From the IMG/VR virus record IMGVR_UViG_3300047388_000215, positions 1 through 51,073 of that record: a stretch of DNA of 51,073 bases, one strand, 5' to 3'. This DNA comes from a virus. The notes under the pieces are model-generated. The model worked only from the letters and a program-made list of their open reading frames with translations, was not told the DNA's origin and made no database searches. Positions 26,543 through 50,466 of this stretch are shown here, piece by piece. Position 1 is the stretch's first letter, and the number at the start of each line of letters is the position of its first letter. The position numbers were made by a program, and so were the translations under genes.

Positions 26543-27387
26543 CGGGCCCCCTGTGCTTCGAGACGGGCGATCAGGTCGGCGGTCGGCGCCAAGCGTTCGG
26601 AGGCGCCGGGTGGGTGGCGCGCGCCGTTGCGCGGCGGTGGCAGCCCGACGAGTTCGGTCCGCAGCGTCTCCACGGTCACGCCGCGGCCGTCGGCGGCGAG
26701 GCGCAGCAGGGCGGCGCGGATCTCGTCGTCGGCCCACTTCTCGGCGTGGATCGCCTTCATGACCACGCCGTTGACGGCCGGCCACTTGCACATCGGTTCG
26801 ACCTCGGCGTAGGCGTCGGTCAGGCGCTTGGATCGTTGGGTGACGCTCAGCGGTCCGGGTGGCGCCGACGCGGAGTCGTCGGCAGCAGGACGATAGTCCT
26901 GCTGTCCTTCTGTCTCTGTCTCTGTCTCTGTCTCTGTGTTCAAGCCGACCGAAGCAACCTGCTTAGCACTTTGCTTACCAACTTGCTTCGAGGGTGCTTC
27001 GCGCTTGCGAACCGAACCGCTTCGCGTGCCACCCTTGCGGCCACTCTCAGCGCGGGTCGCGGATAGGGCCTCGACCTCGGCGCGGGACCGGTTGCGCTTC
27101 AGGAACGCGGACACGAAGAAGCCGTCGTCGGTAGCCGCGATCAGCCCGACTTGGGCCAGCAGCCCGACCTGCCGCTCGCCGACCCTCGGCGAGTCGGGGT
27201 AGCACAGCACGCCGACCTGCTCGACAGGTACGAACCCGTCGGTCAGGTTCCGCTTGGCGTACAAGGCCATCTGCACGTACAGGTCACGCGCCGCCCGGGC
27301 GTCCTTCGGCCATCGGGCGAGGGCGGCCACCTTCGGGTCGTCGGCGAAGTTGACCGACAGCTCCAGGTGGATCTCGCCGTTGGCCAT
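26539..27387 (-). CDS. Replication initiator (DnaD/replisome-organiser-like)
   Basis: The 282-residue product has an N-terminal winged-helix region (HLELSVNFADDPKVAALARW; ERQVGLLAQVGLIAATDDGF). A basic linker with SKQVGKQSAKQV repeats and an ETETETETE run follow, then a C-terminal helical domain (SKRLTDAYAEVEPMCKWPAV) like DnaD-type domains. The linker DNA consists of iteron-like repeats at lower GC than the surroundings, resembling lambda O where the origin lies inside the initiator gene. The C-terminal half precedes the loader-like and helicase genes. Confidence 0.75.
   Translation of the reverse strand: MANGEIHLELSVNFADDPKVAALARWPKDARAARDLYVQMALYAKRNLTDGFVPVEQVGVLCYPDSPRVGERQVGLLAQVGLIAATDDGFFVSAFLKRNRSRAEVEALSATRAESGRKGGTRSGSVRKREAPSKQVGKQSAKQVASVGLNTETETETETEGQQDYRPAADDSASAPPGPLSVTQRSKRLTDAYAEVEPMCKWPAVNGVVMKAIHAEKWADDEIRAALLRLAADGRGVTVETLRTELVGLPPPRNGARHPPGASERLAPTADLIARLEAQGAR
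26901..26940 (-). repeat. Hexanucleotide repeat encoding Glu-Thr
   Basis: The plus strand shows several successive GTCTCT units, giving an ETETETETE run in the initiator linker. Unit-number changes would keep frame and only lengthen the linker. The repeats lie beside the 12-base iterons. Confidence 0.8.
26953..26988 (-). repeat. Three tandem 12-base iterons, candidate replication origin
   Basis: Plus-strand units are AGCAACCTGCTT, AGCACTTTGCTT and ACCAACTTGCTT, directly abutting. The consensus AGCAACTTGCTT is itself nearly palindromic (AGCAA/TTGCT). They lie in an AT-richer part of the initiator gene, as in lambda-type origins, where the initiator binds its own gene. Confidence 0.6.
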
Positions 27388-40232: not shown

Positions 40233-41257
40233 GCACCCACCGGGTTGATCAGCCGGCCGTACAGGGTGATCGCGTCGTCGGCGGACTCGGCGATCAGGTC
40301 CGCGAATCGCTCCTCGTAGACCGCCCGCACCTTGGCGTACACCGCGTCCCGGATGGCCCAGTAGCGGTCGACAGCGACAGCGTCAGCGGCAGCGTCAGCG
40401 GCAGCGACAGCGACAGTGACAGTGGCAGCGACAGCGTCAGCGGCAGCGGCAGCGGCAGCGGCAGCGACAGCGACAGCGACAGCGTCAGCGACAGCGACAG
40501 CGACAGCGTCAGCGGCAGCGTCAGCGACAGCGTCAGCGTCAGCGACAGCGTCAGCGGCAGCGTCAGCGACAGCGACAGCGACAGTGGCAGCGGCAGCGAC
40601 AGCGTCAGCGTCAGCGACAGCGACAGCGACAGCGGCAGCGGCAGCGTCAGCGACAGCGTCAGCGTCAGCGTCAGCGACAGCGTCAGCGACAGCGGCATCG
40701 GCATCGGCAGCGGCAGCGGCAGCGGCAGCGACAGCGACAGCGTCAGCGTCAGGCAGGTTCGCCAGCGCTTCCCGCACCGCCGCCCTGATGCGCCCGTACC
40801 GCTGCGACCGGATGTCCCAGCAAGCGCCACGGGCTGCTTCGACGGCCGGTCGCGTCGCGCGGTAGGTGTCCTCGTCCACGATCTGCGGGAGGTCGCGGAG
40901 CGTGGACGCATGCTCGGTGAGGCCGGCCTTGTCGAGCCACTTGGGGGTCACGACGCGGATGGTGTGGTCACGGGCCATTGCCCGGCGAACATTGTCCAGG
41001 CCATCGCTGGCGGTGCCGGGCAGCAGCGGGATGTACGGGATCAGCTTCTGCCGGTGCGTGTCGTCAAGCCGGTCGTTGAGGCTGCGGCCAACATCGCCGA
41101 GGAACGGGGATACGCAGGCCGGCCGGTCGGTGTGCTCGATGCCGCGGATGTAGGCGACGGCTTCCATCAGGCACATGCCCGCGTCGGGGCTCTGGTGGGC
41201 GCCTCGGTCGAGGTGCAGGTTGTCGAGCCGGTCGGTGCGGATGGTCGGCGTGCTCAT
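40229..41257 (-). CDS. Actinophage protein with Ala-X repeat domain
   Basis: The N-terminal ~165 residues of the 342-residue product belong to a family frequent in actinophages: [40 protein letters not shown], ... [20 protein letters not shown]. Residues ~169-295 are almost strictly Ala-X (X = Asp, Val, Ala), encoded by GCTGNC hexamers, followed by a short C-terminal domain ([20 protein letters not shown]). The usual family repeat is Ala/Trp/Arg-rich; here it has become a clean microsatellite. AGGAG lies eight bases before the ATG. Function unknown. Confidence 0.75.
40371..40752 (-). repeat. Hexanucleotide microsatellite (GCTGNC)n
   Basis: About 60 units of GCT-GNC on the minus strand. The N is A, T or C and never G, so the second residue is Asp, Val or Ala and never Gly. 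A few units deviate (ACT, GAT). The frame is unaffected by unit-number changes. Confidence 0.9.
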
Positions 41258-44895: not shown

Positions 44896-45963
44896 GTGAG
44901 CAAGCGAGCGACCGCCGCCGCATGGCTGCACAGGCGCGCCGAGCAGGCGCCCCTCGCCGCCGTGTGGGCCGCCGGCGCCGCGCTCACCGCTGTCGGCATG
45001 TACTCCGTCGCCGTCGCCTGCGGCATCCCCGGCAACCTCGCGTGGCTGTACCCGCTGATCTTCGACGGCCTCGCGCTCGTCGCCTACCGCGCCACCAGCC
45101 ACACCATGGACGGCGCTCGCCGGTACGCCGCGTTCGTCGTCATGTTGTGCACCGGCCTGTCCGCCACCGCTCAGGCCGCGCACCTCGCCGCCGGTGACGG
45201 CCTGAGCGCCGGGGCCGATGGTCACCTGAAGGCCGGCGTCGGCGCGGCCCCCGCCATCGCGGTCGCGCTCGCCGCGCATCTGCACTGGCTCACCACCAAG
45301 CCGGCCACCACCCAGACGGACGCCTCCACCCTGCCCGGGGGCGTCACCGGACCGGGGGGAACTGCCAAGATCCCCTCCGGTCCGGTCCCCAGCATCACCG
45401 AGGGTGCCGACGCCGATCCCGGCACCGCCGGGCGGGAGAGGACTGCGTCGCATGGCCGGTCCTCTCTCAGCCCGGCCCCCGAGCTGGTCCCAGCCCTGGC
45501 CCCTCCCGGGGCTGGGACCTCTGACCCCGGCCGGTCGGGTGCGGTGCCCGCCGGCCGGGCCCACGACGAGGTCGCCGAGATGGACAACGTGACCTGGCTT
45601 AAGACACCCCCGGACACCCGCGCCAAGACAGCCGTTCCGGCAGTGTCCGGACAGGGCGCCCGCAACGGTGTCTCGGTCCGCGCGGACACCGGTCAGGACA
45701 CCCCGCCAGGACAGTCGGCAGACAGTCGGACAGCGGGTGTCTTGGTCGCCAGGACAGACACCCAGGACAGCGTGTCCGCCGACCCGGCTGAGACAGCCGG
45801 ACAGCAGGTGTCCGGACAGCCCGACCCGGTGTCTGCGGCGTTGCTGTCCGGGCTGTCTGTTCGGGACGTTGTCCGAGCCACCGGCGCCACCAAGAGCCAC
45901 GTCGAGAAATGTCGCGGGGAACTCGTCGCCGCCGGCCAGCTATCACCGAGAGGACGCGCGTGA
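44896..45963 (+). CDS. DUF2637/SpdB-like membrane protein with motif array
   Basis: The 355-residue product has an N-terminal region with four hydrophobic helices (residues ~15-125; PLAAVWAAGAALTAVGMYSV, GNLAWLYPLIFDGLALVAYR, AAFVVMLCTGLSATAQAA, AAPAIAVALAAHLHW). This is the DUF2637/SpdB type found in actinomycete plasmids, where it helps plasmid spreading. Residues ~130-325 are disordered, and the DNA of residues ~235-325 is packed with GACAC/GACAG motifs. A C-terminal HTH-like stretch (VRDVVRATGATKSHVEKCRG) follows. GGAGG precedes the GTG start. Confidence 0.75.
   Translation: MSKRATAAAWLHRRAEQAPLAAVWAAGAALTAVGMYSVAVACGIPGNLAWLYPLIFDGLALVAYRATSHTMDGARRYAAFVVMLCTGLSATAQAAHLAAGDGLSAGADGHLKAGVGAAPAIAVALAAHLHWLTTKPATTQTDASTLPGGVTGPGGTAKIPSGPVPSITEGADADPGTAGRERTASHGRSSLSPAPELVPALAPPGAGTSDPGRSGAVPAGRAHDEVAEMDNVTWLKTPPDTRAKTAVPAVSGQGARNGVSVRADTGQDTPPGQSADSRTAGVLVARTDTQDSVSADPAETAGQQVSGQPDPVSAALLSGLSVRDVVRATGATKSHVEKCRGELVAAGQLSPRGRA
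45601..45880. repeat. Cluster 1 of GACAC/GACAG motifs
   Basis: By eye roughly 25 copies of GACAC, GACAG or their complements occur in this 280-base stretch in both orientations, including two TGTCCGGACA palindromes (45644-45653 and 45809-45818) and two GACCCGG. Such density is not seen in the flanking DNA. Confidence 0.8.
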
Positions 45964-46232: not shown

Positions 46233-46543
46233 ACGGCAAGAAGCTACGGGCCGGTGAGGTCGCGGACCGGCGAGCGCGATGGTGGGCCAAGCGGCGGCAT
46301 GAGGCTGCGACGCCGGCTGAGCAGGCCAGGCGCGCGTGGGACCAGATCACATCCGACATAGCGCACCTGCCAGTGGGGGAGCAGGGCGAGGTGTGGATTC
46401 AGGTGGCCGACGCGCTGGACCGGGTGGGTGTCAACTTGACAACCCGTCAACAGCCGCGCCGCGTGGCCCAAGGCACAGCCGCGACGCCTGCGCGCACGCG
46501 AGGCGCTGAGCCTAACACGTCAACAAACAGGAGGGTCCGATGA
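46229..46543 (+). CDS. Hypothetical protein
   Basis: The 104-residue product is basic and helical: DRRARWWAKRRHEAATPAEQ, TSDIAHLPVGEQGEVWIQVA. The C-terminus (TATPARTRGAEPNTSTNRRV) is disordered. The ATGA overlap with the previous gene supports it. Function unknown. Confidence 0.55.
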   Translation: MNGKKLRAGEVADRRARWWAKRRHEAATPAEQARRAWDQITSDIAHLPVGEQGEVWIQVADALDRVGVNLTTRQQPRRVAQGTAATPARTRGAEPNTSTNRRVR

Positions 46544-47022
46544 GCGGTGTCATCACCGCGGCCAGCGCACTGTGGTGCCTGGTGTTCGCGTTCGGGTTGC
46601 ACACCCTGGTGGCCGGCCGGGTGGGGCATCTGGTACCCGGCCGGGTCGGCACCGACGTGCTGCCGCGGGGGGTCTCGGTACTGACGCTGGCCGGTCTCGC
46701 CGGCCTCACCGTGGTCACGGTCGGGGGAGCCCTGAACCGGGCCACCACCGCGACCGCCGGGTGGGCGCTGGGCGGCGTGATCCACATCCCGCTGGCGGCA
46801 CATACCGTAGTCGCCGGGGCGGCGCTGCTGGTGGCCCTCTCGGTCATCACGGCGATCATCGCCGGGCATGCGGTGAGCGGCCGGTTCATGTTCGAGGCGG
46901 TCCTGGCGTCGGCGTTGCTGGCGGCGATCCCCGGGCACGCCGGGCAGTTCATCTCAGCCCTGATCCGGGCCGCCGTCCGCGCCGCCGCGTTCCTGGTGGC
47001 CGTCATCTTCCAGGTGGTGTGA
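46540..47022 (+). CDS. Multi-pass membrane protein of the transfer module
   Basis: The 160-residue product has about five hydrophobic segments (e.g. AASALWCLVFAFGLHTLVAG, VLTLAGLAGLTVVTVGGAL, AGAALLVALSVITAIIAG). It overlaps the genes on either side (ATGA and GTGTGA). In actinomycete plasmids such small membrane proteins (Spd) act with TraB in intramycelial spreading. That role is inferred from position. Confidence 0.65.
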   Translation: MSGVITAASALWCLVFAFGLHTLVAGRVGHLVPGRVGTDVLPRGVSVLTLAGLAGLTVVTVGGALNRATTATAGWALGGVIHIPLAAHTVVAGAALLVALSVITAIIAGHAVSGRFMFEAVLASALLAAIPGHAGQFISALIRAAVRAAAFLVAVIFQVV

Positions 47023-48326
47023 CCGTGATCGGCTATGTCGGCTACGTCCTGCTCGCTGTCCTTGCCTTCCTCGCGCTGTCTGTCTTGGACACCGACGGGA
47101 AGTGGGGGAGAGGTGTCCGCGGCGCTGTCTCCGAGCTACGCGCGGACCAGTCTGGAGGTGTCCGGGGGAAGCTGTCCGCCGCCGCCGAGGGTGCCCGTCT
47201 CGGGTGGCAGGACAAGACACCCAGCACCCGCCGGACAGTCGGCAAGACACCCCCTCAGGACAGCCTGCTGACGAGTGTCTTGGGCAAGCTCGGGAGGGTG
47301 TCTTCACGGGCTGTCCGCAAGATCAGAGACACGGTGTCCGGACAGCCGGAAGACACCTCGACGTCCCCCATGTTGCTGGTCCGCCCGGACGGCACCGCCG
47401 AGCACATCGCCTGGGATGAGAGTTCGTGGTTGCCGCGACTGCGGCCGGGAGAGCGCATCCACTGGCTCGACCGGTTCGGGGCGATCGACGACAGCATCGG
47501 CTCCCCGATCACCTACGACGACCAGATGCCCGGCGGCTTCGACCACAACGCCGACATCAGCGACCTGGCCGACGAGTCGGAGCCCGACACCCTGCCAACC
47601 GGCTGGCTCTCGATGACACTCTCCTGCATGGACCCGTTCTGCGGTGCGGCCCAGACCTTCCGCGCACCGTACGACAGCCGAGCCGGTCTCTCGTGGGAGG
47701 TCATCAAGGCCAACTGGCTGATCGTGGACGACAGCAACGGGTCCGGCTGGTGCCCGGAGCACCGCCCGGACAAGGCCACCTACACCCCGTATGACCCCAA
47801 CGACCCCGAGACGCGGGCCTTCATAGAGCGCGTCCTGGAGGCCAAGCTCGCCCGCCTGGAGCGGTTCGACACCCCGGATGCGGCCATTCGGCCTGCGGCG
47901 GAACAACACGAGGGAGACGGCATGACCCACCCCAGCAACGGCAGCGGCCACGGCAGCACGGCCGGTGCGATCGAGAACCTGCCCGACTACCGGCGCTACC
48001 TCGCCGCCGCCCTGACCCGGGCGCTCGGCGAGCTGGAGGACGCGCAGGCCGGCGCGCAGCGGCACCGCGACCAGGCAGTGTCGATCGCCGAGGGCGTGTC
48101 CCGCCTGATCGCGCTCAAGGCCGACCCGGCAACCGTCGCCGAGGGCAACCGGGTCGCCGAGCAGGCGCAGATGGCGGCGGAGGCGTCCACGAAGCTCGCC
48201 ACCCAACTGTCCGAACTGGTGGATTCGATCAAGGCCGCGATCGACGGCGCCCGCCGGCACGACCAGGTGCAGGAGTCCCACGACTCCGGCGTCCACCTGG
48301 ACCGCGAGGCATACCAGGGCGCCTGA
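47019..48326 (+). CDS. Membrane-anchored coiled-coil protein with second motif array
   Basis: The 435-residue product has one N-terminal helix (IGYVGYVLLAVLAFLALSVL), then a basic disordered segment (residues ~20-115) whose DNA carries the second GACAC/GACAG array. A central domain has Cys (CMDPFCGAAQTF, WCPEHRPDKATYTP), and the C-terminus is an acidic/Ala helical coiled coil (ALTRALGELEDAQAGAQRHR; QMAAEASTKLATQLSELVDS). GTG start overlaps the prior gene. Function unknown; it probably works with TraB. Confidence 0.65.
   Translation: MTVIGYVGYVLLAVLAFLALSVLDTDGKWGRGVRGAVSELRADQSGGVRGKLSAAAEGARLGWQDKTPSTRRTVGKTPPQDSLLTSVLGKLGRVSSRAVRKIRDTVSGQPEDTSTSPMLLVRPDGTAEHIAWDESSWLPRLRPGERIHWLDRFGAIDDSIGSPITYDDQMPGGFDHNADISDLADESEPDTLPTGWLSMTLSCMDPFCGAAQTFRAPYDSRAGLSWEVIKANWLIVDDSNGSGWCPEHRPDKATYTPYDPNDPETRAFIERVLEAKLARLERFDTPDAAIRPAAEQHEGDGMTHPSNGSGHGSTAGAIENLPDYRRYLAAALTRALGELEDAQAGAQRHRDQAVSIAEGVSRLIALKADPATVAEGNRVAEQAQMAAEASTKLATQLSELVDSIKAAIDGARRHDQVQESHDSGVHLDREAYQGA
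47041..47365. repeat. Cluster 2 of GACAC/GACAG motifs
   Basis: About 20 copies of the same motif lie in the 5' part of the 435-residue gene, in both orientations, including the palindrome TGTCCGGACA at 47335-47344 inside a 15-base match to cluster 1 (GGTGTCCGGACAGCC). Confidence 0.8.
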
Positions 48327-48367: not shown

Positions 48368-48409
48368 AGTCGGCCAGGACCCACCACACCAACGAGCAGG
48401 GAGATTGTG

Positions 48410-49096
48410 ATGAGCTACGGGCGCGGGCGGGACCTGTCGCCGCTCGACTGGGTCTCCCAGCCGTACCGGCAGCCGTTGGCATCGCGCGCCGGCCGCGCTG
48501 CCGCGGCGGGCGCCGGCCGGCTGGCCGTGGCCGGCGGGAAGCGCGCCAAGGCGAGGTGGCGCCCCGGTATGCCGCTGCTGGTCGCGCTGTTCGTGCACGT
48601 GTTGGCGGTGCTGCTGCGGGCGGCCGTCCTGGGGATACGGAAGCTCGGCGGCTCCAGCCACACCTGGACCGTTGATCTGGTGCTGGCGACGGTTGCCGTG
48701 GCTGTGCTGCTGCCGATGTGGTGGGTGGCGCTGGGCTGGCCGGTGCCGCGCAAGCACCGCCGTCGCCGGGCGTGGCAGTCGAGCCGGCTGGCCCACCTCG
48801 TGGTCGGGTCGGCGCTGCTGCTGATGTACCTGCCGGTGAGCGTGTGGTGGCTGCCGCCGTGGCGGACCCTCGGTGCGCCGTGGCTGCCGGTCGTGGCCGT
48901 GACCGCCGTGGTGTCGCTGGCCGTGTGGGCGTGGGGCTACTGGGGCTTCTACCGCACCCACGAGGTTGAGGAGGAGCCGGAGCCGGCCGAGGTGTACGGG
49001 CCGGCCGAGCTTTGGGCCGAGGAGATCGGCGCGGCCGGCGGGCTGCTGCCCGGATCAACTCTGGCCGCCGTCCGCGACATCGAGGTGTCGGCATGA
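48410..49096 (+). CDS. Membrane protein encoded before TraB
   Basis: The 228-residue product has a Gly/Ala/Arg-rich N-terminus and four hydrophobic helices (LLVALFVHVLAVLLRAAVLG, DLVLATVAVAVLLPMWWVAL, AHLVVGSALLLMYLPVSVWW, WLPVVAVTAVVSLAVWAWGY), then an acidic tail (YRTHEVEEEPEPAEVYGPAE). Proteins of this design often precede TraB in actinomycete elements. GGGAG precedes the ATG; the GTG one codon upstream is less favoured. Confidence 0.65.
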   Translation: MSYGRGRDLSPLDWVSQPYRQPLASRAGRAAAAGAGRLAVAGGKRAKARWRPGMPLLVALFVHVLAVLLRAAVLGIRKLGGSSHTWTVDLVLATVAVAVLLPMWWVALGWPVPRKHRRRRAWQSSRLAHLVVGSALLLMYLPVSVWWLPPWRTLGAPWLPVVAVTAVVSLAVWAWGYWGFYRTHEVEEEPEPAEVYGPAELWAEEIGAAGGLLPGSTLAAVRDIEVSA

Positions 49097-50466
49097 CCGC
49101 GGTCAAGCGGGAAGTCATCGGCTGGGCCGGTGAGATCACGCTCCGCCCCGGACAGGCCGCCTCTGACGTGTACGGCATGCGCAACAAGCTCGCGTCGGTG
49201 TTCGACGTACACGGCTCCTCGGTAATCCTGACGCCGGGCTCGACGGAGCGCAGGCTTGGTATCGAGGTGTACTCGGTCAACCCGTTGCAGACCGCCCCAC
49301 GGTTTACCGCGCCAACCCTGGATCTCGCCACGGGTCAGTGTGTGGTCGGCTACGACACCATGGGGTCGCCGGTCCACTGGCGGTTCTGGCGGCCGGGTTG
49401 GGGTGCTTGTCACGGCCTGGTATTCGGCACTTCTGGCGCCGGGAAGTCGTCGCTGCTGTCCATGCTGATGACCGAGGTCCGGCATTCCGGTGTGGGTGTT
49501 GTCTGGTTCTTCGATCCGGAAGAGGGATTGTCGGCTCCTCCGTGGATCGACGCCGCGAACTTCTACGCAGGTGTTGACGAGGACGGCGGACTCGGTCCCA
49601 TTACCTCCGGGCTGGGGGCGCTGGCAGCGGTATGGGCGCACCGACGCAAGCAGCTCGCCGCCGCACGGCACACTTGGCAGGGGCCGACAGAGGAATTCCC
49701 GCTGATCTTTGTCCCGGTCGATGAAGCGCCGGACGTGCTCGCGGACCCGGTGCGAGCCGGCATCATGAAATGGCTACTGCGGAAGGGCCGCAAGGTCGGC
49801 ATTTCGTTGGTCGTCATCGCGCAGGTGCCGTCCTTGACCGAGCTCGGCGGGGACCAAGCAATCCGTTCACAGGCGGCTGGCGTGAATGTCCTGGCGTTCC
49901 GTACCAGCGACCGGATGAGTGCGGCAATGGGCATGCCTAAAGCGCTGCCCGTGGACCCAGCTACGTTGCCGGAGGAATGGCCGGACGGTTCGTCAACCGC
50001 AGGCTTGGCTTACGTGAGCGGCGGGCAGATGGTCCGCACGCTTTGGCTGCCCGATGACGACGCTTGGTCATGGGCGCAGTCCGGCGCTCCGGCTGACCTT
50101 GACGAGGGCTCCGCTCGTGCGGCCGGCGGGGACTACCTGCGGGCGTGGCTGCTACGCCACGGTCGTGCCGACGAGGCCGCCGCCGTGCAGGACGCTCCGC
50201 CGGTCCAGCCGGACAACGTGACCGCCATCGAGGACGCCTCCAGCGGATCGCTGCGGGAGCGCCTGGTGCTGCTGCTCACCGACCTGGGCACCGCGACCAC
50301 CGGAGTCCTGCACGCCCGCGTAGCGGTGGACGGCCGGCCTGATCTGACCCAGGTGTCCCGGGCGCTGCGGAAGGCCGCCGACCGCGGGGAGATCCGCGAC
50401 GACGGCCACCGCCGCTGGGGCGCCATCACCACCGACGAAGCCGCCGACGCGGTTGAGGGGAACTGA
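49093..50466 (+). CDS. traB: TraB/FtsK-type DNA translocase
   Basis: The 457-residue product has Walker A FGTSGAGKSS (residues ~111-120), a downstream VVWFFDPEEG, Walker B LIFVPVDEAPDVL (~204-216), and LLRKGRKVGISLVVIAQVPS, the FtsK/TraB motor pattern. The C-terminal ~70 residues (LRERLVLLLTDLGTATTGVL, LTQVSRALRKAADRGEIRDD) form a winged helix. TraB proteins of actinomycetes move double-stranded DNA between cells and use the C-terminal domain to recognise short repeated sites. ATGA overlap with the preceding gene. Confidence 0.85.
   Translation: MTAVKREVIGWAGEITLRPGQAASDVYGMRNKLASVFDVHGSSVILTPGSTERRLGIEVYSVNPLQTAPRFTAPTLDLATGQCVVGYDTMGSPVHWRFWRPGWGACHGLVFGTSGAGKSSLLSMLMTEVRHSGVGVVWFFDPEEGLSAPPWIDAANFYAGVDEDGGLGPITSGLGALAAVWAHRRKQLAAARHTWQGPTEEFPLIFVPVDEAPDVLADPVRAGIMKWLLRKGRKVGISLVVIAQVPSLTELGGDQAIRSQAAGVNVLAFRTSDRMSAAMGMPKALPVDPATLPEEWPDGSSTAGLAYVSGGQMVRTLWLPDDDAWSWAQSGAPADLDEGSARAAGGDYLRAWLLRHGRADEAAAVQDAPPVQPDNVTAIEDASSGSLRERLVLLLTDLGTATTGVLHARVAVDGRPDLTQVSRALRKAADRGEIRDDGHRRWGAITTDEAADAVEGN

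Follow-up and report, generated by a model that had tools for sequence, protein, structure and literature searches.

The transfer module of a tailed-phage genome (IMG/VR virus record IMGVR_UViG_3300047388_000215; the whole stretch of 51,073 nucleotides that was analysed is referred to as the window) was found to contain about 40 copies of the six-letter site RGACAS (R = A/G, S = C/G), concentrated in two module genes, the first of which encodes an SpdB-type membrane protein. The two arrays are real and are selected at the DNA level. Arrays with other motifs recur in the same gene of relatives, and across elements the motif co-varies with the C-terminal HTH of the SpdB-type protein and not with the winged helix of TraB. 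It seems likely that the arrays are cis-acting sites of the element's SpdB-type protein, one of them lying inside its own gene, and that they would act through HTH binding and docking at the membrane. The window arrays belong to a widespread and apparently undescribed class of SpdB self-arrays.

A Streptomyces-type transfer module in a tailed-phage genome

The minus strand of the window carries genes for a minor tail protein, capsid, portal, major tail protein, terminase and DnaB helicase, and the transfer module occupies 44-50.5 kb of the plus strand. Its order is a DUF2637/SpdB-type gene, small genes, a polytopic protein, the protein whose gene holds array 2, a membrane protein with four segments and the TraB motor. 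The features are:

44896..45963, + strand: SpdB-type gene, 355 aa, with N-terminal membrane domain DUF2637, low-complexity linker and C-terminal HTH
45602..45858: array 1, 23 RGACAS (15 on the + and 8 on the - strand), in the linker-coding part of the SpdB-type gene
45644..45653: palindrome TGTCCGGACA, two sites head to head, with further copies at 45809 and 47335 (array 2)
45826..45930, + strand: C-terminal three-helix HTH of the SpdB-type protein, proposed array reader (AlphaFold2)
46540..47022, + strand: polytopic membrane protein, 160 aa (hydropathy)
47025..48326, + strand: 433-aa protein with a single N-terminal membrane segment; the gene holds array 2
47056..47356: array 2, 19 RGACAS in both orientations, in gene 47025-48326, next-but-one upstream of traB
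48407..49096, + strand: 229-aa membrane protein with about four membrane segments
49093..50466, + strand: TraB-type DNA translocase of the FtsK/SpoIIIE family, 457 aa, motor part without membrane segment
50251..50424, + strand: TraB C-terminal winged helix, residues 387-444, the rival candidate reader (predicted structure and alignment)

The SpdB-type protein matched the DUF2637 profile over residues 21-99 (24 bits against a cut-off of 22.8), and the three helices of its HTH (16-22, 27-34 and 38-50) were modelled by AlphaFold2 with a pLDDT above 90 over most of their length. Judged by eye, this HTH is of the same class as those of pJV1 and pWTY27 SpdB2; a structure search with the 60-aa HTH gave weak matches to DNA-binding HTH domains, none of them significant. 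The protein encoded at 46540-47022 had no match in a Pfam scan.

The initial annotation had pointed, 3 kb downstream of array 1, to a TraB ending in a winged helix, and this was borne out. The predicted structure has the FtsK motor fold (Foldseek E = 2.8×10−14 to 6t8o and 1.2×10−14 to TcpA), the sequence contains the Walker-motif GTSGAGKS together with a Pfam FtsK match that is sub-threshold only, and the predicted winged helix is made up of helices at residues 387-398, 403-410 and 418-430 and strands at 434-438 and 441-444. The 229-aa protein occupies the place of the N-terminal membrane domain in other TraBs. TraB appears to be split here into this membrane protein (48407-49096) and a motor-plus-winged-helix protein (49093-50466), whereas a single chain of about 640-710 aa is found in relatives.

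The gene order of the SpdB/DUF2637 spread module (small genes, polytopic protein, TraB) is present in the window, and a comparable order was found in plasmids of Streptomyces, Kitasatospora, Nonomuraea and Micromonospora as well as in two other IMG/VR records, in which TraB is 41-42% identical and a terminase is present in both. Direct searches for close relatives of the window TraB, the 46540-47022 protein and SpdB found none. The terminase genes in the window and in loci L011, L012 and L013 mark these as tailed-phage genomes with a Streptomyces-type SpdB/TraB module, that is, phages or phage-plasmids with conjugation-like genes. The phage recurs, since a 9.65-kb contig from another metagenome record (L002) matches the window capsid protein at 100% identity.

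Two arrays of RGACAS sites

The initial annotation had noticed some 25 GACAC/GACAG motifs within a coding stretch of 280 bases, along with two palindromes and two copies of GACCCGG. Our count for 45601-45880 was 24 GACA/TGTC, 23 of which are GACAC (11) or GACAG (12) on either strand; both palindromes are there, as is GACCCGG at 45781 and 45823, and a third TGTCCGGACA lies in array 2. All 23 sites of array 1 fit [AG]GACA[CG], the usual flanked form being [CA][GA]GACA[CG]C. They fall into five of the six frame/strand classes, and the distance between them is irregular, with a mean of 11 b. Array 2, which had been missed, lies just past the coding of the N-terminal membrane segment of the 433-aa protein. 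The distance upstream of traB is 3.2 kb for array 1 and 1.7 kb for array 2, and no helical phasing of the sites was detected in either (coherence 0.22 and 0.34). Outside the arrays, the density of RGACAS within the 51-kb window reaches a maximum of 6 per 280 b.

A weak third cluster of six RGACAS was observed at 26902-27114, near the DnaB gene. An apparent third array by 5-mer counts, at 40371-40752 in a minus-strand gene, was discarded as a simple low-complexity GACAGC/GTCAGC/GGCAGC repeat, with only 3 RGACAS in 40-41 kb. The pSVH1-type repeat GACCCGGA occurs 16 times in the window and 0 times at 44.9-50.5 kb, and is thus not enriched in the module.

Array density against synonymous recoding

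When the codons of the array 1 segment were permuted synonymously with the protein fixed, 9.6±2.0 sites were obtained and none of 5000 permutations reached 23. Resampling from the codon usage of the module gave 4.2±1.6 sites and shuffling of the codon order 2.0±1.3. For array 2, where the motif was set beforehand from array 1, synonymous permutation gave 5.7 sites (0/5000 reaching 19) and resampling from module codon usage 3.5. We also used a motif-blind statistic, for which every 5-mer of the gene is considered and the size of the largest out-of-phase cluster is taken, over 20000 recodings. No recoding reached the value observed for array 1 (0/20000), and the result was weaker for array 2 (256/20000 with 5-mers and 2/20000 with 6-mers). 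Among 1110 genes of the loci compared, the window SpdB gene ranks tenth on this statistic.

Codon choice, amino-acid repeats or mutation might have produced the motif density incidentally, the linker being indeed of low complexity and single-frame clusters in some relatives (AAGGAC in L037) being explained in this way. Given that the sites lie in many frames and on both strands, that 0/5000 and 0/20000 recodings reach the observed value, and that arrays are kept in ten plasmid homologues of pJV1 SpdB2, we regard this explanation as extremely improbable. For array 1, an origin in codon choice or a repeat peptide, against which the initial annotation had weighed its own reading, is refuted by the synonymous controls.

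Arrays in the SpdB-type genes of relatives

The scan for arrays covered TraB loci of plasmids and viral contigs as well as those in 395 Actinomycetes genomes. About 20 elements of actinobacteria, whether plasmid, phage or chromosomal, were found to have in-gene arrays in the linker-coding stretch of an SpdB/DUF2637-type gene; they include pJV1, pSN22 (in whose record the array-bearing gene is split in two) and pWTY27. As in the window, these arrays are dense, in two orientations and in multiple frames, and they are built on a different 6-8-mer from element to element. The arrays in SpdB-type genes include:

CCGATCG: L008, in which the SpdB-type gene lies just downstream of TraB
GAGGCC: L013
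CGTCACC: L017
GTGAGC: pJV1 (L036)
CGAGAC: L078 and L079
CGGACC: L081 and L080
CGAACC: L082
GTGAAC: L088
CGAAAC/CGAAGC: L007, L046, L010, L037 and L095

The array-bearing proteins share a common plan of a membrane domain, a low-complexity linker (the array at the DNA level) and a C-terminal HTH-like segment. Absence of the motif from related loci, named in the initial annotation as grounds for refutation, does not count against the array: the corresponding gene of relatives holds arrays too, built on motifs of their own. The motif clusters lay in the SpdB-type gene in the loci examined, and in some of them also in a neighbouring gene or its flank. In two loci a further array resembles array 2 of the window: that of L081 is found in the gene preceding traB, and that of L017, a small one, in the gene following SpdB. 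An array can extend beyond the coding region, as indicated by clusters of GGCGGAAC and GTGCCCA at the 3' end of the SpdB-type gene and just downstream (L032 14297-14844 and L035 6771-7149).

Such arrays are not universal. The screen was passed by 15/38 DUF2637-labelled genes, a clear array was seen only in L046 among the SpdB-type genes of L038-L075, and the enrichment was weak (P = 0.004-0.024) in L011 and L012, the nearest TraB relatives. Single-frame clusters (CGCGAG in L004/L005/L009, GCGGAA in L030/L031 and AAGGAC in L037) were not counted because coiled-coil codons can yield them. Other repeats were encountered in the same records: two-orientation GTGACA sites, probably in-gene iterons, inside a Rep-like gene of a Micromonospora zamorensis plasmid (L008 3279-3417), and ten GTCGGA in 120 b of a Kitasatospora indigofera plasmid, far from TraB (L005 755-877). 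One gene of the conjugative plasmid pWTY27 has the annotation 'phage major capsid protein' (L186 10642-12102).

The motif follows the SpdB HTH

Two DNA-binding domains are candidate readers, the TraB winged helix and the SpdB C-terminal HTH. Three HTH families correspond to three motif families, and each motif is enriched in its own family only. In a Mantel test of 17 loci with automatic motif choice and HTH segments cut by hand, the motif was correlated with the SpdB HTH (r = 0.417, P = 1×10−4) and not with TraB (r = 0.011, P = 0.44). The partial tests agreed (motif and SpdB given TraB, r = 0.43, P = 1×10−4; motif and TraB given SpdB, r = -0.12, P = 0.91). L037 and L088 have similar TraB winged helices (0.58), yet their SpdB HTHs are dissimilar (0.09) and their motifs differ; L007 and L095 display the reverse pattern. 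In a table of 18 genes by 8 motifs, the enrichments were nearly diagonal, the one exception being GCGAAC in L082, which overlaps that locus's own CGAACC. These results speak against TraB, which the initial annotation had named as the array reader.

The relation also had predictive value. A 43-aa HMM of one HTH family searched in 35 genomes gave two new clear matches and one marginal match. One clear match was an SpdB-type gene beside TraB whose linker array consists of 11 CGAGAC, the only CGAGAC/CGGGAC cluster in 16 kb, as predicted; the other (L160), degraded and interrupted by runs of N, was left out. Ten previously unused plasmid homologues of pJV1 SpdB2 all carried arrays (10/10), HTHs with TGxS[TA]GWVA going with GTGAGC and those with TGWSIGWVS with GTGAAC, while TGWSVAWVS in pWTY27 goes with GCGAAC.

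The motif could thus be predicted from the HTH in other families, and close relatives of the window HTH itself were not found. Searches for a close homologue with a known motif found none, the HTH alone as query giving marginal matches only, and for the window the link between motif and reader is therefore drawn by analogy.

Proposed mechanism

We propose that the C-terminal HTH of SpdB, flexibly linked to the membrane domain, binds the repeated RGACAS on double-stranded DNA. Many close sites would let clustered membrane-bound SpdB grip its own genome, and the SpdB cluster would present the gripped DNA to the TraB translocase at the membrane or septum. The outcome would be that the element's DNA, and not the chromosome, is spread or transferred. 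The linker would tolerate amino-acid changes, which may be why its coding DNA houses the array; joint inheritance and co-evolution of array and HTH may account for a separate motif in each element. Array 2, being in a different gene, is not required by a model in which SpdB is the reader, and counts against it.

Alternative readers and functions

The initial annotation had suggested a clt-like transfer locus with a new recognition sequence. The part of this that stands is a coding-embedded cis-acting array in an SpdB-type gene under DNA-level selection; the part that does not is TraB as its reader. If the arrays were coding-embedded clt, the TraB winged helix would read RGACAS and load the translocase, as in pSVH1, pJV1 and pWTY27. 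A TraB with a winged helix is encoded 3 kb away, multiple short repeats lie close to traB (23 and 19 copies), and a clt may overlap a gene, as that of pWTY27 does with 16 bp of traA. The clt repeats CCGCACASS of pJV1 and TGACACC of pWTY27 are experimentally proven (PMC3583192). The window motif CCGGACASC is one letter off the former and shares GACACC with the latter, which is footprinted by its Tra protein, and this resemblance means that TraB, or both proteins, may read the window arrays. However, a motif read by TraB should co-vary with the TraB winged helix, and across the 17 loci it does not follow it (r = 0.01, P = 0.44), the L037/L088 pair giving the same picture. Further, the mapped clt repeats of pJV1 and pWTY27 lie outside spdB and differ from the motifs of the spdB arrays in these plasmids (GTGAGC and GCGAAC, respectively), and known clts are about 54-175 bp long with few repeats. 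Reading by TraB is less likely than reading by SpdB, and we consider the clt explanation improbable, if still to be reckoned with.

Arrays that serve a phage-plasmid as partition site (centromere) or replication iterons, with the cognate partition or initiator protein made from another locus, would be in keeping with many short two-orientation sites, as in a centromere, and with the in-gene GTGACA iterons in the Rep-like gene near the module of L008. This is quite unlikely given that the arrays are tied to the SpdB gene and not to rep/par, that the motif co-varies with the SpdB HTH, that the spacing is irregular, unlike that of iterons, and that ParA/ParB were not recognised among the window proteins scanned. 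Recognition of sites within the same gene would also fit autoregulation, with SpdB or another regulator repressing its own operon from operators, but about 40 sites deep in genes and well downstream of the operon start far exceed the needs of repression, and the clusters are mostly inside the SpdB gene and not at promoters, which makes operators very unlikely.

Relation to known systems

The SpdB arrays resemble the clt/TRS of Streptomyces TraB (pSVH1, pJV1, pIJ101 and pWTY27), which are likewise short repeated element-specific motifs beside traB/spd genes, read by an HTH and able to overlap coding DNA. They differ in that 20-40 two-orientation sites lie inside spdB and in that the motif follows the SpdB HTH across elements. 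FtsK KOPS and the SpoIIIE recognition sequences are also short repeated sites for a membrane-anchored DNA transport machine of the FtsK family and are genome-wide and polar, whereas the window arrays are clustered in both orientations and their proposed reader is SpdB rather than the motor.

A site for a Spd protein inside its own gene has a precedent in pIJ101, where SpdA2 recognises sps inside its own coding region; sps can be removed by synonymous changes and has a role in plasmid stability (PMC4170104). Both are DNA-level sites. However, many plasmids have the same sps, a single conserved palindrome of 12 bp present 2-3 times, and SpdA is small and binds DNA (PMC4170104); the motif of the window class, in contrast, is variable, occurs in many copies and lies in a gene for a membrane protein. 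The spread-module protein SpdB2 of pSVH1 is integral to the membrane, oligomerises, and binds both dsDNA and TraB (PMC4170104). Its DNA binding is described there, in a citation of the original work, as lacking sequence specificity (cited in PMC4170104), which counts against the proposed mechanism, whereas the arrays predict a sequence preference conferred by the C-terminal HTH. According to a 2025 review, it is still to be studied whether TraB assembles with Spd proteins (PMC12857230). In the open-access literature searched, which most subscription papers fall outside, we found no description of SpdB-gene arrays.

Implications for spread and transfer

These findings place a Streptomyces-type transfer module in tailed-phage genomes, and they illustrate that annotation at the protein level overlooks cis-acting loci concealed in linker-coding DNA. 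For decades the known spd genes of Streptomyces plasmids have lacked a mechanism, and the spdB array would give SpdB a concrete target; arrays matched to the protein's own HTH are present in the model plasmids pJV1, pSN22 and pWTY27. We judge it an even chance that actinobacterial conjugative plasmids, integrative elements and phages with transfer modules share an unrecognised self-encoded docking locus, in which element-specific sites inside the gene of the reader membrane protein couple DNA identity to the TraB channel. If this is true, paired HTH and array sequences (e.g. those for GTGAGC, GTGAAC and GCGAAC) would constitute a readable recognition code, and a self-encoded docking locus could explain the specificity of intramycelial spread.
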